Of a DNA stretch of 35,230 bases, positions 4,533-28,966 are shown in pieces. The stretch's first letter is position 1. Each line of letters opens with the position of its first letter. The stretch lies in the NCBI GenBank assembly GCA_002922725.1, contig PNEW01000010.1, forward strand, positions 1 to 35,230, in the 5' to 3' direction. The position numbers and the translations under genes are program-made. The stretch is from Verrucomicrobia bacterium Opi.OSU.00C (GTDB lineage Bacteria; Verrucomicrobiota; Verrucomicrobiia; Opitutales; PNEW01). A model generated the notes under the pieces. It was not told the origin of the DNA. It searched no databases and saw only the letters and a program-made list of their open reading frames with translations.

Positions 4533-5405
4533 ATGATAACTATTTACCACCATTATTCTGCGGTTTTTATTCTCTTCGCCCTTTGCTTGTCTTGTAGTCC
4601 AGTCCCGAAAGAAGTTATCTACGATCTACGTGGGCAGGTAACCTCTATATATTCAATGAAAAATGAAATTACTATTAGGCATGAGAAAATACCGGGCTTT
4701 ATGCCCGCAATGACCATGCCTTTTAAGGTTAAGGATATCATGTTACTTGAAAAGAGAAGGCCCGGAGATTTTATCGAGGCAAAACTTGTTATAACTGATA
4801 AAGAAGCTTATCTAATCAATATAGTAAAAACTGGGTTTGAAGAACTTTTAATCCCCACTGAAACCTTCCAGAACTCTACAAATGCTGTTACCCAACTACG
4901 TAAAGGTGATTTTTTACCAGATGTAACTTTTATCGACCAAGATAATAGCCCACAAAATTTTAACGAATATCTTGGTAAGCAATTAATTCTTACCTTTATT
5001 TATACTCGTTGCCCTTTGCCTAATTTTTGCCCACTTATGGACCTACGCTTTCAATCTCTACAAAAAACGATCCTTAAAAATAAAGATTTAAAAGCGACAA
5101 CCAGGCTTTTCTCTATAAGCTTTGATCCAGAGTTTGATACTCCAAAAATCCTTAAACAATATGGCGATGAGCTCAAAGCGGATTATGAGATATGGAGTTT
5201 TCTAACCGGTGAAAAAGATGTTATTTTAAATTTTGCAGAACATTTTGGAATATTAGTTATAAATAATGAGAGTTCCCCTGAAGAAATCGTTCATTCGCTG
5301 CGAACAGTTATCGTGAATACTTCTGGAAGATTAGTTAAGATTTATCATGGTAACGAATGGACTTCCGAAGATATTTGGGAAGAAATAGCTCAATTACGTG
5401 ACTAA
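4533..5405 (+). CDS. Lipoprotein-like fusion of a CusF-like copper-binding domain and a SCO1/SenC domain
   Basis: N-terminal HEKIPGFMPAMTMPFKVKD (CusF_Ec-like), then TFIYTRCPLPNFCP and the distal EEIVHSLRTVIVN histidine region of SCO1. LSC is near the signal peptide end. Confidence 0.88.
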   Translation: MITIYHHYSAVFILFALCLSCSPVPKEVIYDLRGQVTSIYSMKNEITIRHEKIPGFMPAMTMPFKVKDIMLLEKRRPGDFIEAKLVITDKEAYLINIVKTGFEELLIPTETFQNSTNAVTQLRKGDFLPDVTFIDQDNSPQNFNEYLGKQLILTFIYTRCPLPNFCPLMDLRFQSLQKTILKNKDLKATTRLFSISFDPEFDTPKILKQYGDELKADYEIWSFLTGEKDVILNFAEHFGILVINNESSPEEIVHSLRTVIVNTSGRLVKIYHGNEWTSEDIWEEIAQLRD

Positions 5406-6144: not shown

Positions 6145-7026
6145 ATGGGAAAATCAAAAGAAATAAAAACCTATTCCGACCTCGCTGGAGATGGTGGTTC
6201 CGATATTATGGGACAAGTTATTGCGCACAAAGCCAAAATTGAAGCAAATCTTTCCGGCATCAAACAGGTCATTGCAGTTGGATCGGGTAAAGGAGGAGTT
6301 GGCAAAAGTACAATCTCAATGTATCTTGCATCTGCTTTTAACCGTTTAGGTAAAAGTGTTTCCCTTCTTGATGCAGATGTTAACGGGCCAGCCCTGGCTC
6401 GATTTGCAGGGCTTACTGATGCTCCGCTCATACCCGGTCAAAATGGTCTTATCGTCCCAAAAACTAAATCAGGCATTGGCGTCATTTCCTTTGGTAGCCT
6501 TGTGCCAGAATCAGAAGCCGTGGATTTTAAAAGTGTGGCAAGTGGTGATTCTCATGTATGGCGAGCAACTAAAGAGTTTTCAACTCTTGCAGATTTCCTC
6601 GCTGATACCGATTGGGGAAAACTAGACTATCTTCTTATCGATCTTCCTCCAGGTGCTGAAAGGTGCTTTCAATTCGCAGAGTTTTTTGGCCACAAAACAT
6701 CGTTTATACTTATCACCATCCCCTCTGAAGTTTCACAAGGTGTTGTTACACGATCGATTGCCGCCATTAAGAAAACACCATCTCCAATTATCGGATATAT
6801 CGAAAATATGAGTGGATATTACTGCATCGACTCTCAGGAAGTGAAGCCCTTGTTTCCCTCAGGTAATGCCAAATTGGATATCCCTTTACTAGGCTCAGTC
6901 CCGTTTGATCCAAGTGTAGCTGAGCATTGTGATCGAGGAACTGTTATCAACTATGCCAACGATTCTCCAACAAACATTTCTCTTCAAAGCATCGCAACAA
7001 AAATAACAAATACCTTGGAAGTCTAA
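6145..7026 (+). CDS. Mrp/NBP35/ApbC-like P-loop ATPase
   Basis: Deviant Walker A GSGKGGVGKST, LLDADVNGPALARF, LIDLPPGAE, IGYIENMSGYYC. Confidence 0.92.
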   Translation: MGKSKEIKTYSDLAGDGGSDIMGQVIAHKAKIEANLSGIKQVIAVGSGKGGVGKSTISMYLASAFNRLGKSVSLLDADVNGPALARFAGLTDAPLIPGQNGLIVPKTKSGIGVISFGSLVPESEAVDFKSVASGDSHVWRATKEFSTLADFLADTDWGKLDYLLIDLPPGAERCFQFAEFFGHKTSFILITIPSEVSQGVVTRSIAAIKKTPSPIIGYIENMSGYYCIDSQEVKPLFPSGNAKLDIPLLGSVPFDPSVAEHCDRGTVINYANDSPTNISLQSIATKITNTLEV

Positions 7027-7027
7027 A

Positions 7028-7534
7028 ATGAAATTTCTATGCACATCCTGTAATACCCAGATGAAACTGGTAAAGAATGAACCCCCACTAAGGCCCGATG
7101 ATCATGGGTCTCTATCCATTCGCTACGAATGTCCAGACTGTTTGTTAGAAATCGCAATGCTTACCAATGCATTTGAAACGCAGTTAGTCACTTCGATGGG
7201 AGTAGAAATCGGGGGGAAAACTGTATCAAAATCTCAGGGTATATCCCTTGACGAAAGCGGAAATATGGCAGAAGAGCATTCTGAGTCTGCATCTAAATGC
7301 CCTTTTTCTCAAATGGCTCGTGAATCCATGATTGAATCTTCGGAAACCGACTCTGTAAATAAGATTGAAAATGAATTTCCTTGGACAGCTCAGGCAATGG
7401 TTCGTTTGCAGAACATACCCGAATTTGCCCGTCCCATGGCAAAAAAAGGCATCGAAAAGTTCGCGCACGATGAAGGCTTCGCCCAAGTTACCGAAGAATG
7501 CCTTGACCGCGCTAAAGAAGAGTTCCAAATGTGA
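7028..7534 (+). CDS. Zn-ribbon protein with C-terminal PCP_red-like domain
   Basis: CTSC...CPDC at the N-terminus; FPWTAQAMVRLQNIPEFARPMAKKGIEKFAHDEGFAQVTEECLDRAKEEF at the C-terminus. Starts 2 nt after the mrp-like stop. Confidence 0.82.
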   Translation: MKFLCTSCNTQMKLVKNEPPLRPDDHGSLSIRYECPDCLLEIAMLTNAFETQLVTSMGVEIGGKTVSKSQGISLDESGNMAEEHSESASKCPFSQMARESMIESSETDSVNKIENEFPWTAQAMVRLQNIPEFARPMAKKGIEKFAHDEGFAQVTEECLDRAKEEFQM

Positions 7535-7647
7535 GCATAAGGCAATTCAGAATACATATTGAATACTGAAAGTGGGTAAATAGTGATTAATGGTAAGAAA
7601 CAAACTTACATCCTGTATCTTGAATCACATTGATTAACTGTTAAACA

Positions 7648-8988
7648 ATGCTAAACGAGGTGCCTAAAAATAAGTTCCAGCGTCCATATGTTATATCATG
7701 GAATTTAACTAACCGTTGTAATTTAAAATGTGAGCATTGCTATCTCGATGCAGGAGGTAAAGATGTTCGAAGATTATCAACCGATGGTTTTGCTGATCGT
7801 AGTGAACTAAACACCGCTCAATGCAAAGAGATCATTAATCAGATCGCTGAATTTGCACCTGAAGCTTTGACGATTCTCACTGGAGGGGAACCTTTGCTGC
7901 GAAAAGATATTATCGAGATCATTGAATATGGCAGTGAAAAGGATCTTTGGGTCGTTTGTGGAACAAATGGTGTTCTCATTACAGAAAGCCTAGCGAAAAT
8001 ACTAAAAGATAGTGGATTGCGAGGGTTGTCGCTTTCACTCGATTCACTAGATCCCGAAATTCACGACAGATTTCGCGGGGTAAAAGGCGCTTGGGAAAAT
8101 ACTGTTAACGGAGCAGAAATCCTTCATCGCGCTAACCTTTCCTTCATCGTTCAAACTACAGTTGGAAAACACAATTTTGATCAGATCGAAGCCATAGCTG
8201 ATTACGCTTATCAGAAAATGGGCGCAAAGGTTTTTAACCTCTACTTTCTTGTACCTACTGGTCGTGGTCAGTTCGTATCTGATATTAGCCAGAAGCAATA
8301 TAATGAAGTTTTAACAACATTTTCGCTTATCCAAAAAAAATATGAGCGGAAGATGATTACCAATGCGAAGTGTGCCCCCCATTATATTAAACACCTTTAT
8401 GAAGAAGATCCCAATTCCAAATTTTTAAAATCTTTTACTGGAGGAGCCGGTGGTTGCCCGGCAGGAACACAATACATGGGAATTCGACCTAACGGGGATA
8501 TGACTCCCTGTCCTTACCTACCAGTATTTGGTGGTAATTTAAAAAATGAAACAATGAATGAGATTTGGAATGAGTCTGAACTGTTTATGAGAATTCGACA
8601 ACGCAACAAACTTAACGATCGTTGCGGGGAATGTGAATTTAACGGTATATGTGGAGGCTGTCGGGCTCGTTCATTTGGAGCTACCGGTGATTATATGGCC
8701 GAAGATCCAATTTGTGATTTCAAGCCTGGGAAATATTCACGTGAGGCAATCAACAATAATTCTGGTCTGGTATACGGCCTTCCTCATAATCTCAATGAAT
8801 CTGAAGAGATTGAATGGAGAGATGATGCAAAAGATCGGATGAAAGAAATCCCTGCATTTGTCCGAGGTATGGTAAAGAAGTCGGTAGAATCTTATTGTCA
8901 TAAGAACAATATTCATTGGGTAACTGGTGATGTCCTCTCCCAAATACGCAAGAAAATGCCGACGCCAAAGATTTTCGGAAAGAAATAA
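7648..8988 (+). CDS. Radical SAM/SPASM protein (AhbD/NirJ-like) with C-terminal PCP_red-like domain
   Basis: CNLKCEHC radical SAM motif, TGGEPLL, SPASM cysteines (GGCPAGTQYMGIRPNGDMTPCPY; DRCGECEFNGICGGCRAR), then IEWRDDAKDRMKEIPAFVRGMVKKSVESYC. Confidence 0.88.
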   Translation: MLNEVPKNKFQRPYVISWNLTNRCNLKCEHCYLDAGGKDVRRLSTDGFADRSELNTAQCKEIINQIAEFAPEALTILTGGEPLLRKDIIEIIEYGSEKDLWVVCGTNGVLITESLAKILKDSGLRGLSLSLDSLDPEIHDRFRGVKGAWENTVNGAEILHRANLSFIVQTTVGKHNFDQIEAIADYAYQKMGAKVFNLYFLVPTGRGQFVSDISQKQYNEVLTTFSLIQKKYERKMITNAKCAPHYIKHLYEEDPNSKFLKSFTGGAGGCPAGTQYMGIRPNGDMTPCPYLPVFGGNLKNETMNEIWNESELFMRIRQRNKLNDRCGECEFNGICGGCRARSFGATGDYMAEDPICDFKPGKYSREAINNNSGLVYGLPHNLNESEEIEWRDDAKDRMKEIPAFVRGMVKKSVESYCHKNNIHWVTGDVLSQIRKKMPTPKIFGKK

Positions 8989-9099
8989 ATGCCACGACAT
9001 TGAATTGACATCATACCTAATTATTCAAATTATTTTGATGCTACCAAATTCATAATTTAAGCTAGGTTAATTCATATTAAACCCCTATAGATAAGATAC

Positions 9100-11169
9100 A
9101 TGTTTAAATCGATTCTCGTTCCTGTAGATAACTCAGACTATTCCAATCAAGCGATTAATATCGCTATTCAAATTGGAAAGAAATTCAACTCCTCAATGAC
9201 TGGCAATCATGTTTATGCTGCCAAGATGCATGATTATCGATTTAAGCAAATGGAGTTTACACTGCCAGGTGAATACCTCCAGGAAACAGAATTAGAAAGG
9301 CAACGAAAGATTCACGACAGCCTCATTACTATGGGGTTAAAACTCATTTCCGATTGTTATCTCAATGAGATGGATAAACTCTGCAAAGCAGAGGGGCTGG
9401 AAATGGAACGAAAAATGATTGATGGGAAGCATCATGAACAAATCTTGAATGACATGGAAGCTTCCAATTACGATCTTACAGTTCTAGGTATTAAAGGTAT
9501 TGGAAAAACTAAAGACAGCCAAATCGGTGCTGTTTGCCAGAGTGTTACCCGCCATGGTAAAGGTGATATCTGGGTGGTAAAACATGTCCCAAAGGAAGAT
9601 GAATCAGTACGTGATAAAATTCTCGTTGGGATTGACGGAAGCCCCCAATCGTTTGGAGCACTGATGACTGCAGCCGAATTGGCGGAAAAATTTAATAAAA
9701 AAATCACCCTTATTGGTATTTATGATCCTTATCTTCATTACATGGTATTCAATGGAATTGTCGATGTTCTTACCGATAAGGCTGCTAAGGTTTTCCGGTT
9801 CGAAGAACAGAACCAATTACATGAAGAAATAATTGATACTGGACTCGCCCAGATCTACCAATCACATCTAGAAGTCGCTGAAAAAATGCTGAAAGAGAAA
9901 GGTATAGAAGTAGAAAAAGTATTACTTGACGGTAAAGCCTTCCAAAAGATTCTAGATTATGCGCGCAAAAATCCTCCTTGGTTGTTGGTAGTTGGTAGAA
10001 TCGGGGTTCATAGTGACCTAGAAGATTCCGGTTTGGGAAGCAATACTGATAACCTATTGCGTATGGCCCCCTGTGATATATTACTCAGTTCACAATTAGT
10101 TCATCCAGAACTTGATCGTAAAGCCGAGGAGAGTATCCAATGGACACAGGAAGCCGAAGAAAGGATGACACGAGTCCCTCCTCTTGTAAAAGGCATTGCA
10201 CGCACTGGGATATTACGGCTTGCGGTGGAAAAAGGGCACAGTGTCGTTACTAATTCTTTAATTGACGACGCCATGGATCGTTTCATGCCTAAACAAACAG
10301 CAAAAGCAACCGATAAACTTGCAGAAACTTTAGCTTTTAACCAGGCACGTAAAGGTAACACGGCACTTTGTATTAGCTGCGGGACTACCGCCCAAGAAGA
10401 AAACCCTTTAAAATGCGCGGTTTGTGGGTCGATTAATTTTGAAATCATTACCCCAGAAACAATAGATAAAATTATTGAATCTGAAGGTGGAGCAAAAGAT
10501 GAAACTACATATGATGGGAAAAAGCTAACTTGGACCAAAGAAGCCCGCAAACTTTTACCAGCAATTAAAGACGCTTACCAGAAAAGACGGACAAAAGCCT
10601 ACATTGAAAAAGCCGCTCGGATGCGGCGTTTGAGTGCGATCACTCTAGATTTTGCTGAAGAAATTTTTAAAGAACTTGGGCATGAAGACAGCCTCGAAGA
10701 ACAGGCACAAGCATCTTCATCTGAAGATCCTAACACTCTTCTTGAACAAGAAATCAATAGTGGGTTTAAATTAATTGCCAGGGATGCAAAAGGAACACCC
10801 TTAAAATCAGTATTTGAATGGACTTCTGACGCTTCAGAACGAATTTTGCGTGTACCATCAGGTTTTATGCGAAATAAAGTTCAGGAACGAATAGAAAGCT
10901 TAGCTTTAGATAACAAAGTAATAACTATTGATATTAATCTAGTCGAAAAGGGTATTGAAATTGGACGAATGATGATGGAAGAAATGATCACCTCCCAAAG
11001 TAATGGGCAGGGTGCAGCAACCTATGATAAAAACAATTCAAGAATTGCTTCCTTACCGATTTATGGAAATGAAGATGTAAACGACTACCCTCCCAACCAA
11101 CCACCGAAAGAGAATCTCAATGAGGTCAGTGTTATGTCAGAATTAGATAAAAAACGTTCCGACTATTAA
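9100..11169 (+). CDS. Tandem universal stress protein domains fused to three PCP_red-like repeats and a Zn ribbon
   Basis: Two USP-like domains (FKSILVPVDNSDYS; DKILVGIDGSPQS), a CISCG..CAVCG zinc ribbon, and three W-T-x-E/D-A-containing helical repeats. Confidence 0.82.
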   Translation: MFKSILVPVDNSDYSNQAINIAIQIGKKFNSSMTGNHVYAAKMHDYRFKQMEFTLPGEYLQETELERQRKIHDSLITMGLKLISDCYLNEMDKLCKAEGLEMERKMIDGKHHEQILNDMEASNYDLTVLGIKGIGKTKDSQIGAVCQSVTRHGKGDIWVVKHVPKEDESVRDKILVGIDGSPQSFGALMTAAELAEKFNKKITLIGIYDPYLHYMVFNGIVDVLTDKAAKVFRFEEQNQLHEEIIDTGLAQIYQSHLEVAEKMLKEKGIEVEKVLLDGKAFQKILDYARKNPPWLLVVGRIGVHSDLEDSGLGSNTDNLLRMAPCDILLSSQLVHPELDRKAEESIQWTQEAEERMTRVPPLVKGIARTGILRLAVEKGHSVVTNSLIDDAMDRFMPKQTAKATDKLAETLAFNQARKGNTALCISCGTTAQEENPLKCAVCGSINFEIITPETIDKIIESEGGAKDETTYDGKKLTWTKEARKLLPAIKDAYQKRRTKAYIEKAARMRRLSAITLDFAEEIFKELGHEDSLEEQAQASSSEDPNTLLEQEINSGFKLIARDAKGTPLKSVFEWTSDASERILRVPSGFMRNKVQERIESLALDNKVITIDINLVEKGIEIGRMMMEEMITSQSNGQGAATYDKNNSRIASLPIYGNEDVNDYPPNQPPKENLNEVSVMSELDKKRSDY

Positions 11170-11174
11170 GGTGC

Positions 11175-12065
11175 ATGCCTTCTTTCAGGTTTTGTCGCCC
11201 TGATGATATTCCATTACTCACCGAAGCTATAAACAGGTGTTATGATGTTCATTTTCCCAATGTACCTCCGCTCACTATAGAGGGCTTTAAAAGAGAAGTT
11301 AAATATCTCAACCTTTGGTCCAGTTCATGCATGCTTGCCCTGGATAATGATGATCCTATTGGTGTTTTAATCGCGGCGAAAAGAGAAGCTTCTTCATTAA
11401 TCTTGAGGCTAGGGGTTCATCCTGCCTATAGAGGGAATGGGTACGGACATCATCTTGTGACTTCTTTAATTGATAAAATGGCTGTTCTGGGTCCACCATT
11501 GTTGACTGTCGTAATCCCAGATAAGAGAAAAGACTTACCCCTTTTTTTTAGAAAACTTAATTTTACATCACACAATAATTATTGGGATTTTATCACTACC
11601 ACTTCTTTACCTCCTCCAACATCTTCGCAGTGGGTCATTCCTGTTAGACTTGAGGATCTTGGAGATCGTTACCTCAGAAAAAAAGAAGTTGATAAAAGTG
11701 ATGAATCAGTGCTCGCATGGGAACGTAGAACGCAAACGCTCAATAACAGAAAAAGAGAAATCAAAGGGATTGGTATACCAGATGTAGATGGAATTGCCGC
11801 CTATCTATTTTATACCGAAGACGAACCTGGCAATCTTACCTCACATAAATCGGTTAAAATTTTAGGGCTTGGATGCAAAACCCAAGTGAAAGAACCGATG
11901 CTGCTCGGACTCTTGGTGCAATATTTATCCAATACAATTAACTCATCAATAGAAATCCCTAAGCTATCTGTTTATGAAGTTGATTTCTCCTTTTTGGAAA
12001 AAATCAATTTCAGGAAAACACAGAGTTATACTGAACACAAAATGATCACAACAAAATTTAAATGA
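11175..12065 (+). CDS. GNAT-family N-acetyltransferase, possibly two tandem GNAT folds
   Basis: RLGVHPAYRGNGYGHHLV acetyl-CoA binding motif. The C-terminal half resembles a second, degenerate fold. Confidence 0.8.
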   Translation: MPSFRFCRPDDIPLLTEAINRCYDVHFPNVPPLTIEGFKREVKYLNLWSSSCMLALDNDDPIGVLIAAKREASSLILRLGVHPAYRGNGYGHHLVTSLIDKMAVLGPPLLTVVIPDKRKDLPLFFRKLNFTSHNNYWDFITTTSLPPPTSSQWVIPVRLEDLGDRYLRKKEVDKSDESVLAWERRTQTLNNRKREIKGIGIPDVDGIAAYLFYTEDEPGNLTSHKSVKILGLGCKTQVKEPMLLGLLVQYLSNTINSSIEIPKLSVYEVDFSFLEKINFRKTQSYTEHKMITTKFK

Positions 12066-12925: not shown

Positions 12926-14533
12926 TCAAGTTGCTGAAAATTTCTTTCTTATTAGGAAAACGATTATCAATTCTAGTAAAAGGGCAAGAAGACCGTATGT
13001 TAACATTGGTACAATTGGTGATTTTTTTACCGAAGCCTTTAAATAAAGGCTGTACCATGCGGTAATACTACTGGCGATACCGTGTTCGTTGTTAAAACCA
13101 TCCCACACGTAAAAAGAAAGTGGAATAAAGCTTTCTTCGATAAAAGATACGCCTTCTTCCCCATCCAAATTACGATTGTACTTGAAGATAACTGACCACT
13201 CACCGTCCTCATAGTTGGAGAATGCTAATACGTGATTATCTACAGATGTAAGCCTATCATAGCCATAGCCCGTGTATTGCTTTACTTCATTTTTATTAGC
13301 TAGGTCTAAAAACGTAACATTTACACTATTCTTTTTATCTCCAAAAAGAAAATAAGGCTTCTTAAAGCCCGAAGTCATTTTACTTGGAACCTGTAAAGCA
13401 ACTGCATCAGAATATCTTTTATCACGCTCTTCGACAACCAGTGTTTTTTGCTTATTTTTCGGATTGTCGAGGTGAAATTTATCAACTAATATATCCGGAG
13501 CATTACTTCCTTTGGTATCCGCTTTCATATCATTCCAAGTAAGCAAAAATGCAATTGTTTCTTGATTGTAGATTGATCTAACTTCGATTGCATTTGCCGA
13601 AGGGAAAAACTCCCGCCCCGGTTCAATCACCTGTCCGACTAAAGGGAACAGTGCAGCTTCACTATTCTCAAAAAGAGATTTCCCTTGTGAAATATCAATT
13701 TCCTTTTCTGTATATTCCGCGATTATCGTCGTAGAATAGTTTGGTTCATCCTTTTCGGAAAGTGAATAAATATAATTTACCAGGTGCCAGCGATCTTCAG
13801 GTGTAATAGAATCTTTATATGACGGCATCGGTGTTCCATTTAAACCAGTAGTAAAGGCCCGGTACATGTCTTCACGTGTTGCACCACGTCGGAAAGTCCA
13901 TCTTTTTGTTAAATCAGCTGGTCGGATATGGTATTTTGTCTCGCCAAACCCGTCTTCAAGGGTTGGGGCCGATACCCCGCTGCCTCGCCCACTGTCACCA
14001 TGGCAACCATTGCACTCATTTAAGGAATAGAGTTCCTTACCTTTCAAAGCGGATTCTTCACTGTAAGGAGGAGCTTTAGAGAAAACTAGTGGGTCTACTA
14101 CAAAATCCGGGTCAGTAAAATCTTCATTAAAAGTTTTAAGATAATAAGTGAGGTTTTGATATTCTTCTTCAGTAAAACCGGGGAAAGCAGGCATACCCGA
14201 GTATGGCATTCCTTTTTTAATGACTTGTTTGATATCATCATCGGTAGGAAGTTCCCCACTTTCTGTGCTGCGAAGTTTATATTTCCCACTCGTAAAGTCT
14301 CTTGGTTTGGGATGAAAATATAGACTCGCGCTTCCTTTCCCATCTCCATCTATCCCATGACAATGGGCACAATAATTTACATATAGTTTTTTTCCTGACG
14401 CTTGCTCTACTTCAGTCCCCAAGTTTACTTCCGCTGAATAGAGGTTACAAATTGTAAATACCCCGATAATTATTAAGAGAAAAGAGCCCTGTAAAGATCT
14501 ACTCTTTTTAGAAAATTGCATTGTTAACTTCAT
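12926..14533 (-). CDS. Diheme cytochrome c fused to an ethylbenzene-dehydrogenase-like heme-binding domain, C-terminal TM
   Basis: CAHCHG and CNGCHG heme motifs, then LFPLVGQVIEPG..EVRSIYNQETIAFLLTWND..DAVALQVP..VWDGFNNEHG (EB_dh-like), and a C-terminal hydrophobic segment. Confidence 0.83.
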   Translation of the reverse strand: MKLTMQFSKKSRSLQGSFLLIIIGVFTICNLYSAEVNLGTEVEQASGKKLYVNYCAHCHGIDGDGKGSASLYFHPKPRDFTSGKYKLRSTESGELPTDDDIKQVIKKGMPYSGMPAFPGFTEEEYQNLTYYLKTFNEDFTDPDFVVDPLVFSKAPPYSEESALKGKELYSLNECNGCHGDSGRGSGVSAPTLEDGFGETKYHIRPADLTKRWTFRRGATREDMYRAFTTGLNGTPMPSYKDSITPEDRWHLVNYIYSLSEKDEPNYSTTIIAEYTEKEIDISQGKSLFENSEAALFPLVGQVIEPGREFFPSANAIEVRSIYNQETIAFLLTWNDMKADTKGSNAPDILVDKFHLDNPKNKQKTLVVEERDKRYSDAVALQVPSKMTSGFKKPYFLFGDKKNSVNVTFLDLANKNEVKQYTGYGYDRLTSVDNHVLAFSNYEDGEWSVIFKYNRNLDGEEGVSFIEESFIPLSFYVWDGFNNEHGIASSITAWYSLYLKASVKKSPIVPMLTYGLLALLLELIIVFLIRKKFSAT

Positions 14534-14548
14534 TATTACTAATCAAGA

Positions 14549-15382
14549 TTAATGGTGCTCCACTCGCGCCCTTGGATTATGTCCAGTAAAATCGTAAATA
14601 AAAAGGATGACATCCCATATTTCTTCCTCAGTAAGAAATTTCTCCCAAGCAGGCATTGCAGAACTCCAGGGACCTGATTCATCGGGGAGATCAGGGGCTC
14701 CTTTAGCAACCCGCCAAAAAACATATGACTCCTGTAATTGAGCAATTGTTCCAACATCAGCAAAATTAGCAGGTATTGGATTTAATCCATGTGCAAAAAT
14801 CCCTTTCCCCTCCAGGGTATCACCATGACAGAAAACGCAATTATTATAATATACTTTACGGCCTGCTTCAACGTGTTTTTGGAAATCGAGGGGGCTTTCT
14901 GTTTCTAAATGACGATATGGATTTTCAAGTTCATTAAGTATTAATTGTTTGCCTTGATAATTAATTTTAGTAGGTGGTGCAGGGTGGATACTTCTTCCAA
15001 ATACAGGCGCAACAATTTTTACTTGAGAACCAAAATATACCTTACCAGCAACAAGAACAGGAATTATTATGATTACAAGACCAAGGGGTAGTTTAAACTT
15101 CCGATTAACAAGAAATTGGATGACTGGATGAATAGCCTCCTTTAATCGCTGGGTGTCTGCGGTGATATAAAAGAAAAGCGCAATCGTAATGATTGCCATA
15201 AACATCTGAATAATAGAAGAAGGAAGTGGTGGTAAAATCGCATTTTTTAAAATTACGTAAAATGCAATCCACCAGGCAACTACCCAGAAAAGTGGGTTAG
15301 TGAAGGAGAGTCTTTTGCTCCTACTGATTAAATAAAAGATAAATAAAACAAAAAAGACTAGTGGTATGATTAGGTAATTCAT
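14549..15382 (-). CDS. Membrane-anchored monoheme cytochrome c
   Basis: N-terminal TM segments and CVFCHGDTLEGKG, then AMPAWEKFLTEEEIWDVILFIY. Confidence 0.88.
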   Translation of the reverse strand: MNYLIIPLVFFVLFIFYLISRSKRLSFTNPLFWVVAWWIAFYVILKNAILPPLPSSIIQMFMAIITIALFFYITADTQRLKEAIHPVIQFLVNRKFKLPLGLVIIIIPVLVAGKVYFGSQVKIVAPVFGRSIHPAPPTKINYQGKQLILNELENPYRHLETESPLDFQKHVEAGRKVYYNNCVFCHGDTLEGKGIFAHGLNPIPANFADVGTIAQLQESYVFWRVAKGAPDLPDESGPWSSAMPAWEKFLTEEEIWDVILFIYDFTGHNPRARVEHH

Positions 15383-16213
15383 CTAACTACCTTTTTTCTG
15401 CGAAAGAAATTCCACTAATGTTCGTAGTTGTTGGGGAGTAATATCTTCATCAAATCCAGCTCCCTGCAGGGTGGCGCTCATTACACCTTTAACAAAACCT
15501 TCTGTAACCACTGCATCGGGATCTATAATAGATTCTAATATTTCTGCCCTACTCAGCCTATCACCTACATCATAAAGACTTGGTCCGAGCAGTTGGACTG
15601 GATCTGTTAAGCTGTGGCAGGCCATACAAGCGTACTTATTAAAAAGCTCGTCCCCACTTAGATTATCATAAGAAGCACTCGCTTCATCATTGCTTACTAC
15701 CAAAGTAGGTGCCGGTGTTGCTGTTGCTGACGGATCAGCCGAGTATTTCAAATTTGTCTTCATGGTTACTGTTGGGGATCCCCCCAAACTTTGAAGATAA
15801 GCGATTACCGCTAATACTTCTGGCTGTGTTAAACTAATAGGTGCTTTATGTGCTGGTGTCATAATTGGGTTATAACCTTCAACGATATAGGCACCTGGCT
15901 CAAAAAGCGATTCAGCTAAATAATCAATGTCACTATAACCCTCTATACGCTCAGCTGCTCGCCCCCCAATTCCAGCTAGGTCCGGTGCACGTGAGCCATG
16001 AGATCCCATCGTATGACAAAGAAAGCAAGTCCCTTTACCAATGGATATTTTTTCTCCGACAACAACCATTTCTGCTGAGCTCATGTTTTCCCGAACTTCC
16101 GCGCTTTCCGGAGGGTGTGTCTCTTTTTGTGGGACCATTTGCCCTACGTACCAATAAAAAAGCGTGGTTAAGATAGTGAAGCAAAATATTTTAAAAACAT
16201 TCTTCATTTTCAC
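15383..16213 (-). CDS. Diheme cytochrome c, membrane-anchored or secreted
   Basis: CFLCHTMGSHGSRAPDLAGIG and CMACHSLTDPVQLLGPSLYDVGDR. Confidence 0.88.
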   Translation of the reverse strand: MKMKNVFKIFCFTILTTLFYWYVGQMVPQKETHPPESAEVRENMSSAEMVVVGEKISIGKGTCFLCHTMGSHGSRAPDLAGIGGRAAERIEGYSDIDYLAESLFEPGAYIVEGYNPIMTPAHKAPISLTQPEVLAVIAYLQSLGGSPTVTMKTNLKYSADPSATATPAPTLVVSNDEASASYDNLSGDELFNKYACMACHSLTDPVQLLGPSLYDVGDRLSRAEILESIIDPDAVVTEGFVKGVMSATLQGAGFDEDITPQQLRTLVEFLSQKKGS

Positions 16214-16216
16214 TGA

Positions 16217-17947
16217 TCAAGTATTCGGCTCCCAATCTTTCTTGTGGAGAAGCCCAGTAAGCCAGAAATTAAACATGATGAATACGAAGAAGATAATAAC
16301 AATACATGAAACCACAGTGCTGGCAAATCCAAGAGTTGGAGTATAGGCATCAACGGAAGTGTCTTTCATCACTTCATAAACGTGCCAATGTAAGCGAAGC
16401 CCAGAACGTACATAACCCATTAGCCCCATCAACCAGGTAAAAGTAACCGCAAGGAAAAATAACATGTACTGTGCTCTCGCAGGGATCTCCCCCCATTTAA
16501 TCTGACCGACAATACGTGCATTACGAAAAAGAAAAATGTCAATAATTGTAACCGATGTCATCGCGAATAATACAGAGATAACCTGGGGAACAGAAAGACC
16601 AATCCGCACTGTGGCTTCGACGAAATAACCAATCACCCCAATGGCAATGACAAAAATTATCGTTATCGCAAAAATTAGAAATTGAGCCGAATGACCAAGT
16701 GGTGCCCATGAAACTGTTGCCACTTTGTTTCCTCTTCGATAGAGAAGAAAACTGATATAAGTAGTAAGGATCATGATATTAACCGCCGTATTTTTTGCAG
16801 ACATCACACCCAAGATTCCAAGAACCGGGTGATGAGCTCCTCCCATTTTACGCGCTTCTTCTACCGTGGCTACAAGTGAATGTGGGGTTGCCCAAACAAC
16901 AAAACAGACTGTAATTGTTGCAAGAAGGTATTTAACAAATTTTTTATACTTCTCTGCTCCCTCTATTCGCTCCATACCTAACCATAAATAATAGTTAGCC
17001 CCGAGAAAGAGCATCCCAATAAGAACTGCTTGGATAATAAATAACCAGGAAAAAGCCCCTCCCATAAGCACCATACCCATTTGTGCGCGGAAAGCATAAA
17101 TTTCGCTTCCCAACCAATACCCGGCAAATGGCAAAGGAAGTAAAGCGGAAATAGCAATAAAGTTACCAACATACCCCATCCAGTCGTAATGAGCTTTTTC
17201 TTCTTTAGTTTTAGCACCTAAAAATTTAAACCCTGCATAAGCTGCAGCAATTGCTCCACCAAAACAGATATTGGCAATAACTCGGTGAATATTTATCGGC
17301 ATCCAAATATAATTGTTAACTGCATCCCAAGTACTTACCAGATTACCGGCCTCATCAATTCCACTTGGAGATGTCATAAAAGCAAGCCAGGCATTTGCAA
17401 TGAACATAATTGCTGTTCCTACGATATTTAAGCCTAATCCCAAAAGTAGGTGAACACGCGGTGAGAATTTACCCCATCCATAATAATAGCTGTATAAAAA
17501 CCCTGCTTCAGCAAAAAAGAGCAATCCATAAGGCCAAAAAGTCTTATCAAAAATGGAGATCAAGTAACTTGTGAATCTCGGATAGAGAATCATTAACATA
17601 AAAGTTAGGATTGCACCTAAAGTAGCAGTGAAGGAAAAAGAAACACTCAATAAACTAGTAAGTTCATGGGCTAGTTTATCGTAGCGTTTATCTCCTGTCT
17701 TATAACCTATAAATTCGATTAGTAGGGCAAACATTGGAACAGCCAAAACGAAAGCCGCATACATAAGATGCAATTCCCCTACCGCCCATATGGCAATCCG
17801 ACTACCAAAAAAGGGGAATTCTCGATAATCAACATCTGCACCACCACTCTGCGATTGCGCAAAGATTACTGTAGTTCCCGCTAAAAAAACTCCGAAGGAA
17901 ATTACAAACTTAATGATACTACTTTTATGATGTCCGCTCAGGATCAA
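16217..17947 (-). CDS. CydA-like (cytochrome bd quinol oxidase subunit I-like) protein
   Basis: SRIAIWAVGELHLMYAAFVLAVPMFALLIE, INIHRVIANICFGGAIAAAYAGFKFL, GYVRSGLRLHWHVYEVMKDT. Polytopic. No CydB gene in the window. Confidence 0.82.
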   Translation of the reverse strand: MILSGHHKSSIIKFVISFGVFLAGTTVIFAQSQSGGADVDYREFPFFGSRIAIWAVGELHLMYAAFVLAVPMFALLIEFIGYKTGDKRYDKLAHELTSLLSVSFSFTATLGAILTFMLMILYPRFTSYLISIFDKTFWPYGLLFFAEAGFLYSYYYGWGKFSPRVHLLLGLGLNIVGTAIMFIANAWLAFMTSPSGIDEAGNLVSTWDAVNNYIWMPINIHRVIANICFGGAIAAAYAGFKFLGAKTKEEKAHYDWMGYVGNFIAISALLPLPFAGYWLGSEIYAFRAQMGMVLMGGAFSWLFIIQAVLIGMLFLGANYYLWLGMERIEGAEKYKKFVKYLLATITVCFVVWATPHSLVATVEEARKMGGAHHPVLGILGVMSAKNTAVNIMILTTYISFLLYRRGNKVATVSWAPLGHSAQFLIFAITIIFVIAIGVIGYFVEATVRIGLSVPQVISVLFAMTSVTIIDIFLFRNARIVGQIKWGEIPARAQYMLFFLAVTFTWLMGLMGYVRSGLRLHWHVYEVMKDTSVDAYTPTLGFASTVVSCIVIIFFVFIMFNFWLTGLLHKKDWEPNT

Positions 17948-17995
17948 GCTCTTTCAATTAGAATAATTTCACGCCAATAAAAAAGACTTATTGAA

Positions 17996-18790
17996 TTACC
18001 ATAAGTCATCACCACTCTGCGCCTCTGTCTTTGATTTATCTACTTCGCGATTTAACCAATTCGTATAATCATCTTGACTCAGGACTTCGATAAACCCCCT
18101 CATAGTAGAATGCCCTGTGCCACACAACTGACTACATGCAATAAGGTATTTCCCAGTTTGAAGAGCCTTAAAAGTAACGGGAATACTTGAACCAGGAATA
18201 ATATCTTGTTTCACCCTCATTGCAGGAATACCAAAACTGTGTATGACATCTTTGGAGAGAAGGTGTGTAATTATCGGTTTATCTACTGGCATAAATAGGC
18301 GTTTAGCAACAACATCATCTGCCGCATTTGGGTCTTTCATATCCAACCCAAGCGGATTGGTCTGTACATCTATCAACTCAGGGGATGTATTGCCAAAAAC
18401 CCCATCTGTTCCTGAATAATGAAAATTCCAAGCAAATTGTTCTGCTACGACACGAATAACCACCGATTCTGATTCCTCAGGAAAATCGTCCGCCCACTGT
18501 GCCCAGAGTGGAATAGAAAATCCTACAAGCAAGACAATCTCAGCAATAATAACACCTACTTCCGCATAAGTATTCAAATGCGAACGAGTCCCCGTGTAAC
18601 TAGCCTGAGGATTACGCGTCTGTCTAAATCGGAATAGCACATAAACAAAATATAGTGACCATCCTATAAATAAGATGATTGCAAGCAAGTGTACCCACCA
18701 GTTTAAACTATCGAGTGCAGCTCCGTGCTCTGAAACATCAATGGGAAGCCATGGCATCCCGAAGAAGTCTTGCATTGGTTGTTCCATCAT
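17996..18790 (-). CDS. coxB: Cytochrome c oxidase subunit II
   Basis: Two N-terminal TM segments and CuA site ACSQLCGTGHSTMRG. Confidence 0.95.
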   Translation of the reverse strand: MMEQPMQDFFGMPWLPIDVSEHGAALDSLNWWVHLLAIILFIGWSLYFVYVLFRFRQTRNPQASYTGTRSHLNTYAEVGVIIAEIVLLVGFSIPLWAQWADDFPEESESVVIRVVAEQFAWNFHYSGTDGVFGNTSPELIDVQTNPLGLDMKDPNAADDVVAKRLFMPVDKPIITHLLSKDVIHSFGIPAMRVKQDIIPGSSIPVTFKALQTGKYLIACSQLCGTGHSTMRGFIEVLSQDDYTNWLNREVDKSKTEAQSGDDLW

Positions 18791-19050
18791 CGACCTTTCA
18801 TTATTTCTGAATTAGTACTTTGAAGTGAATAATCTCTAGATTTTTTCCACAGGTATATAAAAAAACCTGCAAAACCACAGAGTAAAGTTGAAATTACTAT
18901 ATAGAGGGAAATTATTGCCATATTAACACCTTCAGACATTTTCCCGGTCCCTGCGCTGAAGCAACTGCTACAAGCCACGAGTGGATGTGTAACAATTAAC
19001 AAGGTAATTAAAGTTAAACTATTTAAAAAATTACGGCAATTATATCTCAT
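18787..19050 (-). CDS. Small membrane protein within the cox cluster
   Basis: ORF overlaps the coxB start (ATGA); VACSSCFSAGTGKM then one TM segment. Confidence 0.65.
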   Translation of the reverse strand: MRYNCRNFLNSLTLITLLIVTHPLVACSSCFSAGTGKMSEGVNMAIISLYIVISTLLCGFAGFFIYLWKKSRDYSLQSTNSEIMKGR

Positions 19051-19235
19051 GGTAATAAATTCTGCATTTTATTAATAAAGGAATTACCATAAAAAAACAA
19101 AGCTATACCTGTGCCAATTGATCCAATACCGACAACTACATAGAAACCTGATTGTTGGAACGACCACCAACCGAATCCAAAGCACAGGATTAACGAAATC
19201 GTAATAAAAAATATGTGGAATATTTTTAAGGACAT
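19047..19235 (-). CDS. Small two-TM membrane protein within the cox cluster
   Basis: 62-aa ORF overlapping its neighbour by 4 nt. Confidence 0.55.
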   Translation of the reverse strand: MSLKIFHIFFITISLILCFGFGWWSFQQSGFYVVVGIGSIGTGIALFFYGNSFINKMQNLLP

Positions 19236-19553
19236 TTAATGTTTAACTGTAATTGTATGTGATATGACATCCAGATCCGTTACCACGGGAAGAACCATGA
19301 GGATAATAAAAAAAATGACTGTAAGGGAAAGAGACCATAAAATTAGTTTTTTTTCTGAAACTAGATGCATGAAGTAAGAAACTACTAACGATCCTTTTAC
19401 TAACGCGACGCACAAAGCTAGAGTAATAGTTGCCGGTACTGGTAAATTCAAATAAGAGACGGCAACGGTAATTACAGTCAGGCATAATAAGGCAACAAAA
19501 ATCGCAATGCAGGCCCGTATATGTTGATCAAGTTCTTCTAAGTTTTCAGCCAT
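19236..19553 (-). CDS. Cytochrome c oxidase subunit IV (COX4_pro-like)
   Basis: Three TM segments, ALCVALVKGSLVVSYFMHL. Start set at MAENLEELDQHIRAC rather than the longer ORF overlapping subunit III. Confidence 0.82.
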   Translation of the reverse strand: MAENLEELDQHIRACIAIFVALLCLTVITVAVSYLNLPVPATITLALCVALVKGSLVVSYFMHLVSEKKLILWSLSLTVIFFIILMVLPVVTDLDVISHTITVKH

Positions 19554-19564
19554 AGTTTTTCCTA

Positions 19565-20167
19565 TTACATGAGATAAAGCGTCGGGAAAAGGAAGATCCA
19601 AACAAGGTCCACAAGATGCCAAAAAAGTCCGGCACATTCCACCCTTCCGGTAAAGCGGGCTGGATCTGTGTTCCACATTTTCGAACCTATAAATTGTAAA
19701 TATGCCAATACCAACATACCGCCTATAACATGCAATACATGTAAACCAGTAAGAGTAAAATAGATGGCAAGAAATGTGCTCTCCGATGGGAAGAGTCCAT
19801 GATGAAGTTTTGCACTATATTCAAAATATTTTACCACGAGAAAGATCAAACCGCAGGCAATCGTTATGTAATTATAAAATCGGTACTTATTAATGTCTCT
19901 TCTCACCAGAGAAGCCCATGCCATAACCATCGTAATACTTGAAGATATAAGTACTACCGTATTTAGTGTCGCAAGTGGCACATTGAGAATTGATACACCT
20001 TCTGGCCAAATTTCTGCGCCAATACGAAGTAAAACGTAAGCAGAAAAGAGGCCACCAAAGAGCATGACTTCTGAAGCAAGGAATAGCCAAATCCCAAGCT
20101 TGGCATTGACCAATCCCGTGTCAGGTCTCGGTTTACTTACATATGGTATTTCAATTGTAGACATCAA
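19565..20167 (-). CDS. coxC: Cytochrome c oxidase subunit III
   Basis: KLGIWLFLASEVMLFGGLFSAY, FTLTGLHVLHVIGGM, GLFWHLVDLVWIFLFPTLYL. Confidence 0.95.
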   Translation of the reverse strand: MMSTIEIPYVSKPRPDTGLVNAKLGIWLFLASEVMLFGGLFSAYVLLRIGAEIWPEGVSILNVPLATLNTVVLISSSITMVMAWASLVRRDINKYRFYNYITIACGLIFLVVKYFEYSAKLHHGLFPSESTFLAIYFTLTGLHVLHVIGGMLVLAYLQFIGSKMWNTDPARFTGRVECAGLFWHLVDLVWIFLFPTLYLM

Positions 20168-20182
20168 TTTATCTCCTGAATT

Positions 20183-21985
20183 TCAAGTGGAAGCCCCTTT
20201 TTCAAATTGAGGGCTAAAATCTTTTGCTGCACCGGGAACACTATATTCATAAGGGCCATTATAAACTTCAACTGCAGATTCGAAATTTCCATGTCCTGGT
20301 GGTGATGGTGCTGCCCATTCGACTGTTGTTGCATTCCATGGATTGCGTCCTACCTTTTTCCCTTTCTTTATGCTCCATAATAAATTTACTAAAAAAATTA
20401 TCTGAACCAACCCTAATGCCCAAGCGGACATCGACATCCATTTGTTCAAATAAAGGTAATTTGCAGCATGGGAATAAAACCCCGGATCTATAATTGCCGT
20501 GGCATCAGCATAGGATGCCCCTCCATCATGTAAGCGCCTGTTTATTCCGGCCATTCCCTGAATTAACATAGGGAAAAATACCAAATTCATGAAAATTAGT
20601 GTTCCCCAGAAATGCAACTTCCCAAGTGTTTCATTCATTAAGCGGCCTGAAACCTTAGGGAACCAATAATAGATTCCAGCAAAAAGCCCAAAAAGTGTCC
20701 CGGGCGCTACGACGTAATGAAAATGGCCAATGACATATAAAGTATCGTGGAGGTGAATATCTGATGCGCTGAGCCCTAATGGTAAACCCGTTAAACCACC
20801 AATTCCAAACATGGGTAAAAATCCCAGGGCAAAAAGCATTGGCGTATTAAATCGGATGGATCCACCCCAGAGGGTAAGAAATAGACAGGAAAGAATAATG
20901 ACCGAGGGTACAGATATAATCATTGTTGTCGTTTGAAAAAAAGCGTTCAATGTGGTACCCATACCAGTCATAAACATATGGTGTGCCCAAACAGAAAAAG
21001 ACATGAATCCTAGAAAAATCAAAGAATAAACCATGAGTTTATAGCCAAAAACAGGTTTACGCGCATTATTCGTAATAACTTCGGTAACAATCCCCATCGC
21101 AGGTAAAATGAGGACATAGACCTCAGGATGAGCAAGAAACCAAAATAAATGCTGCCACAAAAGGGGACTGCCACCTCCACTGATATCGGCTACCTCACCA
21201 CTGATAACCAAACCTGTTGGCAGGAAGAAGCTTGTTCCTGCAACTCGGTCCATTAACTGTAATAGCCCGGCAGCTTCAAGTGGGGGAAAAGCAAGAAGAA
21301 GAAGCACAGCCGTTACCAATTGAGTCCATACAAAAAAAGGCAGCCGCATATAAGTCATTCCTGGAGCACGTAGCTGAATCGCAGTGACAATAAAGTTTAT
21401 CGATCCCATCAAAGATGAGGTAATTAAGAAGATCATTCCAACTAGCCAAAAAGTTTGTCCTAACCCGATATCAATGTCCGCAAGAGGCGCATAAGAAGTC
21501 CATCCAGACTTTGCTGCTCCTTCAGGGAGAAAAAAACTAGCAAGCATGATAACGCCACCAACAAAAAGACACCAATAACTGAATGCATTAATTTTCGGGA
21601 AAGCCATATCCACAGCTCCAATTTGCAAGGGTAAAACAAAATTCCCGAAGGCACCAAAAGCCAATGGCACAACACCCATAAATACCATGATAGTCCCATG
21701 CATCGCCCCAAAGGTATTATAAGTGTCAGGCGTCATGATACCGTTGTTGCCAACAAGAAATCCCAGAATAGGTAAAGGCTGATCTGGATAGGCCAAGCTC
21801 CAGCGCATAAGCATCATTAACCCAAACCCAAAGAACAGAAACAATCCACCGGTAATCGTATATTGAATACCAATCATTTTATGATCGGTAGAAAATATGT
21901 ATTTTCTCAAGAATGAAAGCTCTTCGTGATGTTCTTCGTGACTTACTTCAGACTTTTTTTCTTCAGTGATGGTCGTATCTGCCAT
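20183..21985 (-). CDS. coxA: Cytochrome c oxidase subunit I (A-type heme-copper oxidase)
   Basis: WFLAHPEVYVLILPAMGI, FSVWAHHMFMTGMG, HDTLYVIGHFHYVVAPG. Confidence 0.97.
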   Translation of the reverse strand: MADTTITEEKKSEVSHEEHHEELSFLRKYIFSTDHKMIGIQYTITGGLFLFFGFGLMMLMRWSLAYPDQPLPILGFLVGNNGIMTPDTYNTFGAMHGTIMVFMGVVPLAFGAFGNFVLPLQIGAVDMAFPKINAFSYWCLFVGGVIMLASFFLPEGAAKSGWTSYAPLADIDIGLGQTFWLVGMIFLITSSLMGSINFIVTAIQLRAPGMTYMRLPFFVWTQLVTAVLLLLAFPPLEAAGLLQLMDRVAGTSFFLPTGLVISGEVADISGGGSPLLWQHLFWFLAHPEVYVLILPAMGIVTEVITNNARKPVFGYKLMVYSLIFLGFMSFSVWAHHMFMTGMGTTLNAFFQTTTMIISVPSVIILSCLFLTLWGGSIRFNTPMLFALGFLPMFGIGGLTGLPLGLSASDIHLHDTLYVIGHFHYVVAPGTLFGLFAGIYYWFPKVSGRLMNETLGKLHFWGTLIFMNLVFFPMLIQGMAGINRRLHDGGASYADATAIIDPGFYSHAANYLYLNKWMSMSAWALGLVQIIFLVNLLWSIKKGKKVGRNPWNATTVEWAAPSPPGHGNFESAVEVYNGPYEYSVPGAAKDFSPQFEKGAST

Positions 21986-22045: not shown

Positions 22046-22879
22046 TTATCTTGAAAAAGCGAAATCGACTGTTTCATTTGAATCTGCTGCAACTGTGACC
22101 GTCGAAACCTGTGTTCCTAATTTCTCGTGCCAGGCTTCCACTTCGTAAGTTCCAGCTGGTAATCCAATAATTTCAAATTTCCCATCCACCCCGGTAACTG
22201 AAAAATAGGGATGACTCATAACTGCAGCATAGGAAAGCATCCAAGGATGTTTATCGCATTTTATACGAAACATGGACTCACTTTTTCTGAAACTACGTGG
22301 GGGAGCCTCGGTCATACTTCCGGGCATCGCTAAATTGAACTCTCTATTTTTTTCAGGAAGGGCGTGCACATTATGCAAGACTCCATCTGAGTTTTTAAAC
22401 ACTATGTTCTGTCCTTTCATAACTGCAAATACATGGGGCTTATAAGCACACCCCTCTTGATTCACTACCACAGGGGTTGTTGGTGGAGCGTATTTTTGTG
22501 CGCCCAAACCGCTTTTAATACTGACAAAGATATTCGCCATACTTTGACCCTCACCTAAAACTAGGGCCTCGCTTTTAGATGCCATTCCCCATTCCTCCCA
22601 TTTATGGACACAAACGGGTTCATCTGACATATCAAGTTCACGCATCTTTGGTGCATTACCTGTAAACTTAACTGTCCCGGTAATTTTCGCTCCTGATACT
22701 GGAACAGCAATAATCCCCTCTGCGGGTGCAGCAGGAGCCGTCACTTTTTTTACTTCATTTGTTATAGTTTTAGGTGCTGCCTCTTTCCCACCACAGCCAT
22801 AAGATACAAATAAAAGTATGACCCCTAGGAAAATCCCAAATGTATGTTTCATATTTAAATTATTCATTATTTTATTCAA
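22046..22879 (-). CDS. Lipoprotein with cupredoxin-like and carboxypeptidase-regulatory-like domain
   Basis: VSYGCGG lipobox-like, KGQNIVFKNSDGVLHNVHAL..FRIKCDKHPWMLSYAAVMSHPYFSVTGVDGKFEIIGLPAGTYEVEAWHEKLG. Confidence 0.75.
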   Translation of the reverse strand: MNKIMNNLNMKHTFGIFLGVILLFVSYGCGGKEAAPKTITNEVKKVTAPAAPAEGIIAVPVSGAKITGTVKFTGNAPKMRELDMSDEPVCVHKWEEWGMASKSEALVLGEGQSMANIFVSIKSGLGAQKYAPPTTPVVVNQEGCAYKPHVFAVMKGQNIVFKNSDGVLHNVHALPEKNREFNLAMPGSMTEAPPRSFRKSESMFRIKCDKHPWMLSYAAVMSHPYFSVTGVDGKFEIIGLPAGTYEVEAWHEKLGTQVSTVTVAADSNETVDFAFSR

Positions 22880-28072: not shown

Positions 28073-28966
28073 TTGTTTAACATACACCATTTCATGACTG
28101 AAACCTACCTACTGGAAAATCTTAAAACCAGCGATTATAGTGAAGTAGCTAAAGCGGTTTTAGAAATTCAGTCTGAAGTGTTCCCAAAGGTTGATGCGTC
28201 AATGATCTCTGGATTGTTTAAAGACGTAACAGCAATGTTTAAAGGTAATTTTTGGAATTATCAGGCGATGGACACAGTTTACCACGACTTGGAACACACC
28301 TTACGGGTAACGCTTTGTTGGGTTCGAATGGTCGCTAACAGAAATCAACTCCATATCAAACCTGTAATAACAGACAAGAATTTTATCATAGGGCTACATG
28401 GGATAATCCTTCACGATATAGGGTTCCTAAAAGAAAATGGCGACCATGAAGGTACGGGTGCAAAATTTACCTTTGTACATGAGAAACGTAGTTGCGAGTT
28501 GGCATCTTTATACCTGAAAAAAAAGGGGTGGAATAAACGAGATATCTCTGCCGTCCAACACCTCATTAGTTGCACCGGGCCACGTAGTGTTATCGATGCT
28601 GTTTCCTTTAATAACAAACTTGAACGCATTATGGGTGAATCTGTATGCAGTGCTGACTATATTGGCCAAATGAGTGATCCTGCATATTTGCAAAAATTGC
28701 CTGCATTATTCCTAGAATTTGAAGAATCTGATAATTATCATAATATCCCCGTCGAAAACCGTATGTTTAAGAATACTGAAGAGCTTATCCGTGGTACTCC
28801 AGAATTTTGGAAAAATTTAGTAATCCCAAAACTGAAAAAGGAATGTCATGGCTTTTATAAATATCTCTCCCATCCATACCCTGACGGGATCAATCCATAT
28901 TTAAAAAAGATTGAGCATCATGTAAAAACTATCGAAAAAGATCTAAAAACCGCGTCAGTGGAATAA
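28073..28966 (+). CDS. HD-domain phosphohydrolase-like protein
   Basis: VYHDLEHTLRV, IILHDIGFLKENGDHEG, VCSADYIGQMSD. The true start may be ATG at 28094. Confidence 0.75.
   Translation: MFNIHHFMTETYLLENLKTSDYSEVAKAVLEIQSEVFPKVDASMISGLFKDVTAMFKGNFWNYQAMDTVYHDLEHTLRVTLCWVRMVANRNQLHIKPVITDKNFIIGLHGIILHDIGFLKENGDHEGTGAKFTFVHEKRSCELASLYLKKKGWNKRDISAVQHLISCTGPRSVIDAVSFNNKLERIMGESVCSADYIGQMSDPAYLQKLPALFLEFEESDNYHNIPVENRMFKNTEELIRGTPEFWKNLVIPKLKKECHGFYKYLSHPYPDGINPYLKKIEHHVKTIEKDLKTASVE

Follow-up and report, generated by a model that had tools for sequence, protein, structure and literature searches.

Genes at the locus

The subject of this study is a group of genes encoding PCP_red domains (Pfam PF08369), together with a bd-like cytochrome b and its cytochromes c encoded beside them, in a window of 35,230 nucleotides (the whole stretch analyzed) from Verrucomicrobia bacterium Opi.OSU.00C (contig PNEW01000010.1). 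The source genome, here G000, is a draft assembly of 2.05 Mb and 82.6% complete. An earlier note, made from the sequence alone, had proposed a tetrapyrrole-related locus at positions 6145-12065. A check of the open reading frames in this region revealed five genes, all on the plus strand; the note had likewise placed them on one strand. The first encodes a Mrp/NUBPL-type P-loop ATPase (6145..7026; profile match 4e-56). It is followed by ZnR-PCP, which combines a Zn-ribbon-like N-terminus (CxxC...CxxC) with a C-terminal PCP_red (7028..7534; profile search and alignment), and by rSAM-PCP, a radical SAM/SPASM protein of the AhbD/NirJ group that also ends in PCP_red (7648..8988). USP-PCP carries two USP domains and three PCP_red copies (9100..11169; profile search). 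A GNAT acetyltransferase that lacks PCP_red completes the row (11175..12065; profile search). The gaps given in the note need correction: the spacer between genes one and two measures 1 nucleotide instead of 2, and that between USP-PCP and GNAT 5 instead of 6.

The PF08369 model exceeded its gathering score of 32.5 bits in three window proteins. It matched ZnR-PCP with 49.5 bits (E 4.5e-13, residues 119-163), rSAM-PCP with 42.8 bits (E 5.5e-11, residues 390-433) and USP-PCP with 75.2 bits (E 4.1e-21, three stretches). A genome-wide profile search of the 2.05-Mb assembly located no PCP_red elsewhere in G000. Because the E-values are significant and the matches are confined to this locus, chance similarity is excluded. 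In this search copy 1 lies at 7382..7516 (ZnR-PCP, 52 bits), copy 2 at 8815..8946 (rSAM-PCP, 47 bits), and copies 3 and 5, the first and last of USP-PCP, at 10141..10272 and 10819..10947, all on the plus strand. Copy 4, the divergent middle copy of USP-PCP (10531..10662, plus strand; about residues 478-521), gave a weak match of 11 bits with a custom profile, and its predicted secondary structure matches that of both flanking copies. Thus, the related helical module claimed for three consecutive reading frames, with two more copies, is indeed present, and the PF08369 check proposed with this claim gave significant similarity. Each copy is predicted with moderate confidence to fold as strand-helix-long helix-strand-helix; the small helical fold by which the domain is recognized is that of the BchB C-terminus, 2l09 and 2kru.

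A C-terminal PCP_red is also known from BchB/ChlB of the dark-operative protochlorophyllide reductase. A window copy aligned to residues 462-506 of 2xdq_B (3e-5) and to the stand-alone nuclear magnetic resonance structure 2l09. In contrast to BchB, every window PCP_red protein lacks the nitrogenase-like Oxidored_nitro domain, and no chlorophyll pathway is implied.

The radical SAM enzyme

When named genomes were searched with the radical SAM protein, the sole hit was a distant relative from Syntrophaceae (L009), which has no PCP_red. Through this relative a second phylum was reached, so that our comparison covers the phylum of the window and the phylum containing Syntrophaceae (345 genomes), which we take to be the Desulfobacterota of GTDB.

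Profiles, a tree and a predicted structure were used to classify rSAM-PCP. The best curated models were AhbD TIGR04545 (311 bits), NirJ2 (300 bits) and TIGR04053 (261 bits), while the peptide-type models for PqqE and the mycofactocin enzyme scored far lower, at 125-132 bits. AhbD/NirJ enzymes decarboxylate iron tetrapyrroles or remove their propionates (PMC7242693). rSAM-PCP shares with these best-scoring families (TIGR04545, TIGR04055, TIGR04051) the radical SAM plus SPASM layout and the cluster cysteines. In 15 rSAM-PCP proteins the cysteines C24, C28 and C31 (CX3CX2C) as well as the SPASM cysteines C270, C288, C326, C329, C335, C338 and C356 are invariant. The predicted structure consists of a confident barrel, a poorly ordered linker (376-385) and a folded PCP_red after the linker.

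Other features set rSAM-PCP apart from AhbD/NirJ. It scores well under every equivalog cut-off; for AhbD TIGR04545, with its cut-off of 500 bits, the other full-length rSAM-PCP proteins reached 264-337 bits. In the tree rSAM-PCP forms its own clade (Shimodaira-Hasegawa-like approximate likelihood ratio test, SH-aLRT, 99), distinct from the AhbD-like proteins that its host genomes also encode. It carries the extra tethered PCP_red, and it adjoins a bd-like complex instead of ahb or nir genes. At one locus (L069:8076-9287, G483) a second AhbD-like radical SAM protein of 494 bits, without PCP_red, directly adjoins rSAM-PCP.

Since AhbD, a heme b synthase, is the best curated match, rSAM-PCP might be an alternative anaerobic AhbD-like enzyme from which the complex receives ordinary heme b at low oxygen. 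Moreover, it is the sole AhbD-family protein of G000 and of the related genome G004 at E 1e-20. We nevertheless consider this explanation unlikely. The score of 311 bits falls short of the cut-off, ferrochelatase was found in 9 of 10 genomes checked (G000, G004 and 7 of 8 others), and a true AhbD above the cut-off (528-537 bits) is encoded separately in four Desulfobacterota genomes with rSAM-PCP. CtaA was detected in G000, G004 and G386, encoded apart from the module. With ferrochelatase, CtaA and true AhbD encoded separately, the housekeeping supply of heme b or heme A does not depend on rSAM-PCP, and a role as housekeeping heme b synthase is disfavored.

The bd-like cytochrome b and its cytochromes c

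A respiratory operon on the minus strand (12926-21985) converges on the module from the right. Its four genes next to the module were assigned by profiles and alignment. They encode a diheme cytochrome c with an ethylbenzene-dehydrogenase-like (EB_dh) heme domain, termed cytc-EB (12926..14533), a membrane cytochrome c with one CXXCH (14549..15382), a further diheme cytochrome c (15383..16213) and a bd-like, CydA-related cytochrome b (16217..17947), which co-occurrence identified as the partner tracked by the PCP_red genes.

The N-terminal half of the bd-like subunit (residues 47-285) aligned to the CydA structures 9r2g and 5doq. The residues H60, H166, H221, H373 and H522 are nearly invariant among 26 homologues, and the GRQPW motif of the CydA quinol loop was found in none of the 26 bd-like sequences. 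Glu108 of 5doq is retained as E147, whereas a nearly invariant tyrosine (Y140) occupies the position of Glu101. An almost invariant Tyr-rich stretch, E147-x4-Y-x-Y-Y-Y-x-W158, follows. The replacement of Glu101 and this conserved stretch point to a heme pocket that is altered with respect to ordinary cytochrome bd.

Partial CydA similarity, a missing quinol-loop motif and cytochrome c partners are also features of the OR-N type CydA of Nitrospira and Nitrospina. All of them were seen here, and by description the window protein is a candidate for this type. The bd-like/OR-N proteins of nitrite oxidizers are thought to use cytochrome c, not quinol (PMC3578206, PMC10839748, PMC12342949). Such oxidases, known from nitrite oxidizers, anammox bacteria and numerous uncultured lineages, have been termed enigmatic for more than ten years (PMC3578206). 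A text search of the bd-like oxidase papers PMC3578206, PMC10839748 and PMC12342949 found no mention of radical SAM or of PCP_red maturation genes.

The Tyr-rich stretch lies in the region of CydA Glu101/Glu108 and could be read as a target of rSAM-PCP. In that case the enzyme would act on a protein, either the bd-like subunit or a cytochrome c, and introduce a cross-link or some other modification, with the PCP_red proteins holding the substrate in position. The closest solved structures to rSAM-PCP, the SPASM peptide maturases SuiB, PqqE and SkfB, fit this explanation; the list of nearest folds contained no AhbD or NirJ structure. However, the profile scores group rSAM-PCP with AhbD, NirJ2 and TIGR04053, far above the PqqE and mycofactocin enzymes, there is no conserved gene for a small peptide substrate, and PCP_red associates with tetrapyrrole enzymes. 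Protein modification thus appears fairly unlikely to us.

Co-occurrence and gene order

A bd-like protein, scored as present at E 1e-30 or better, was found in 19 of the 345 genomes of the Syntrophaceae-containing phylum. rSAM-PCP and/or USP-PCP were present in 19/19 of these genomes versus 2/326 without the bd-like protein (Fisher 2.6e-29), where the counted genomes are related and phylogenetically non-independent, and the negatives were classed mainly by open-frame length. Among the 19 genomes, 18 carry rSAM-PCP and 17 carry USP-PCP. PCP_red of any kind is more widespread in this phylum (103/345 genomes), in many cases on other proteins. A close bd-like homologue was detected in 2/388 genomes of the window's phylum, and the same two carry both rSAM-PCP and USP-PCP; to this count comes the complete genome G004 with its syntenic block. 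Within the window's order (373 genomes), any PCP_red is limited to G000 and G004.

At 16 loci, including the window, a single fetched contig stretch holds both the PCP_red genes and the gene for the bd-like protein, and at most of these the PCP_red genes are at most a few hundred bases away from the cytochrome block. In G457 the genes for rSAM, ZnR-PCP, Mrp, USP, three cytochromes c and the bd-like protein are all on one strand, an arrangement that would be expected of an operon. Only 6 nucleotides separate rSAM-PCP from the bd-like gene in G637, and 4 nucleotides separate USP-PCP from the cytochrome block in G476. At other loci the PCP_red and cytochrome groups are often convergent, as in the window. 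The survey of gene neighborhoods suggested earlier thus showed that PCP_red with radical SAM and USP recurs in the second phylum.

These observations strongly support that it is the bd-like cytochrome b with its three cytochromes c which the PCP_red genes follow, and not the aa3 oxidase. The link to the nearby respiratory cluster drawn in the earlier note is thereby made specific. A module serving the aa3 oxidase was rejected: no COX genes were seen at loci outside G000 and G004, and the module recurs without them. In addition, COX1 of the window is ordinary, and the heme A enzyme CtaA of G000 and G004 is encoded elsewhere.

The genes might also be neighbors by inheritance only, as a mobile or ancestral block without common function. 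Within the window's phylum the block indeed has a patchy distribution and was probably transferred as a whole. Order and strand vary, however, from convergent to co-directional with 6-nucleotide spacing to separate contigs, and the co-occurrence is still 19/19. We regard mere inheritance as very improbable.

Companion proteins of the radical SAM enzyme

Mrp and ZnR-PCP were found in five genomes each, and hence rSAM and USP represent the core. Of the membership originally proposed, this core was retained, while not every locus includes Mrp and the Zn-ribbon protein. GNAT, which had been counted as a member of the system, is conserved at the locus in G000 and G004 only. It was rejected as a core part and is probably a lineage-specific accessory gene.

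The window Mrp shares the P-loop and the overall family with the Mrp/ApbC Fe-S carrier ATPases, and its Walker A motif GSGKGGVGKS is intact. In contrast to these carriers, the C-terminal CxxC is reduced to a single Cys, the second being missing (ENMSGYYCIDS). The same holds for the counterpart in G004, which is 62% identical. The Mrp homologues of other loci retain the second cysteine, and that of G457 lies within the same operon. The homologue at L010:10305-11168 is among those that have lost the second cysteine.

USP-PCP contains two Usp domains (PF00582) above the cut-off (E 3e-35) and a CxxC...CxxC segment between PCP_red copies 1 and 2. Across the loci the protein has one to five PCP_red copies. 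When plasmids were searched with the USP protein, all hits were plain USPs from haloarchaea. As USP and rSAM are the most constant partners, the system could be mainly regulatory: USP-PCP would sense ATP or redox/oxygen and tune the bd-like complex, with PCP_red as a protein-protein docking tag. PCP_red is without obvious metal ligands, which agrees with such a tag, and in Nitrospira marina four UspA proteins are raised at low O2 beside co-raised electron-transport operons (PMC8115632). This explanation does not account for the fusions of PCP_red to tetrapyrrole enzymes, nor for the radical SAM enzyme, which at almost every locus is conserved and, judging by its residues, catalytically intact. 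We judge it quite improbable.

PCP_red on other proteins

In 16 of 30 loci inspected, PCP_red was found at the N-terminus of NIR_SIR siroheme reductases. Among the Desulfobacterota sampled, no other kind of PCP_red protein is as common (L072, L025-L053 with 16 loci, L113). HutW/ChuW-type heme-degrading radical SAM proteins with N-terminal PCP_red occur in both phyla (L074, L013-L018); the HutW/ChuW model exceeded its cut-off in L074, and there are six more such loci. A nitrogenase-like (Oxidored_nitro) protein with PCP_red twice is encoded at L067:75-1838, in a genome with several PCP_red matches. The protein at L058:7759-9312 contains three PCP_red, a rubredoxin-like segment and a heme-oxygenase-like domain, with a P-loop ATPase gene nearby. 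Because PCP_red is fused to nitrogenase-like, NIR_SIR, HutW/ChuW and heme-oxygenase-like proteins, its assignment as a tetrapyrrole-associated module is supported at the level of domain architecture. The tetrapyrrole link is likewise supported by the best models of rSAM-PCP. The interpretation in the earlier note thus finds support in part; binding of a tetrapyrrole by PCP_red and an unusual heme, both put forward there, are hypothetical.

PCP_red was also observed with moderate score at the C-terminus of MFS transporters (L062:8973-10523, L063:7920-9470, L066:2290-3837), of which that of L062 resembles the magnetosome protein MamH. Stand-alone PCP_red proteins of about 57-87 residues, like the solved Nostoc protein 2l09, are encoded at L112, L144, L145 and L120.

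Extent of the conserved block and other window genes

G004 is a single-contig complete genome from another family of the window's order, in which the whole block of approximately 18 kb is syntenic. From CusF-SCO1 (4533) through a carboxypeptidase-regulatory-like protein (22879), order and orientation are kept at 42-81% protein identity, and the sole block gene without a counterpart is a HpaI-type aldolase at 12131. Because this complete genome carries the entire block, faulty assembly or binning of the draft genome is excluded as the origin of the locus. The extent of 6145-12065 first given was consequently too narrow: the conserved unit reaches left (SCO1/CusF, 4533 and 5697) and right through the respiratory operon to 22879.

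The left flank encodes a CusF and SCO1 fusion (4533..5405, plus strand; profiles, synteny) which probably delivers copper to the oxidase. On the minus strand, profiles and synteny identified cytochrome c oxidase subunit II (17996..18790), whose block is common to G004 only, a COX4-like subunit (19236..19676) and COX3 (19565..20167). COX1 (20183..21985; profiles, motif check) is of the ordinary A-type with a conserved HPEVY motif. The carboxypeptidase-regulatory-like protein (22046..22879, minus strand; profiles) has homologues at several bd-like loci. Promoter and terminator scans of the window yielded nothing exceeding the shuffled expectation. Further to the right, an open reading frame of 297 residues (28073-28966) had no Pfam match at E 0.01. 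A DHDPS-family gene (32796-33709) is apparently split into two overlapping frames by a frameshift or an assembly error; its frame at 32796-33386 covers only profile positions 3-186 of 289.

A candidate maturation module

The reading we favor, to which we give about an even chance, is that these genes serve as a module dedicated to maturation of the neighboring bd-like cytochrome b/c complex. The domain assignments, the genome-wide and positional linkage, the separate radical SAM clade with intact cluster ligands and the separate housekeeping ferrochelatase are observations, whereas heme as the substrate, the nature of its change and the part played by the individual PCP_red proteins are inferred. 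rSAM-PCP would alter iron-porphyrin side chains and thereby yield a particular heme, or a precursor, held by the bd-like subunit. PCP_red on its flexible tether may dock or hold the tetrapyrrole or partner proteins. USP-PCP could be a nucleotide-regulated scaffold or carrier and ZnR-PCP an adaptor, while Mrp may load the Fe-S clusters of the enzyme or power the hand-over.

Several points weigh against maturation of a heme. The nearest solved folds to rSAM-PCP are the peptide maturases named above. PCP_red has no invariant His, Cys or Met and hence gives no hint of metal ligation. USP domains usually regulate and do not build cofactors. In G501 and G666, genomes that are possibly incomplete, USP-PCP is present but no bd-like gene was detected. 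Finally, the counted relatives are non-independent, and the sampling is narrow, with only two phyla.

A wider proposal is possible, although we regard it as doubtful. Here, bd-like complexes would hold an unrecognized modified heme from a four-protein pathway (Mrp, ZnR-PCP, rSAM-PCP, USP-PCP), and PCP_red would be a general tetrapyrrole-handling module of chlorophyll, siroheme, heme-degrading and heme-modifying machinery. The parts are of known kinds; their combination and the near-exclusive tie to the bd-like protein were not found described in the literature searched, which lacked most subscription papers. Nothing relevant on PCP_red, also under the name PCP reductase, emerged from the literature, and no explanation of the role of PCP_red within protochlorophyllide reductase was found in the accessible literature.

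For the bd-like oxidases, a special cofactor is predicted from their near-perfect genomic association with a radical SAM enzyme of the heme type. The linkage names candidate genes for work on this cofactor and proposes a common role for PCP_red.

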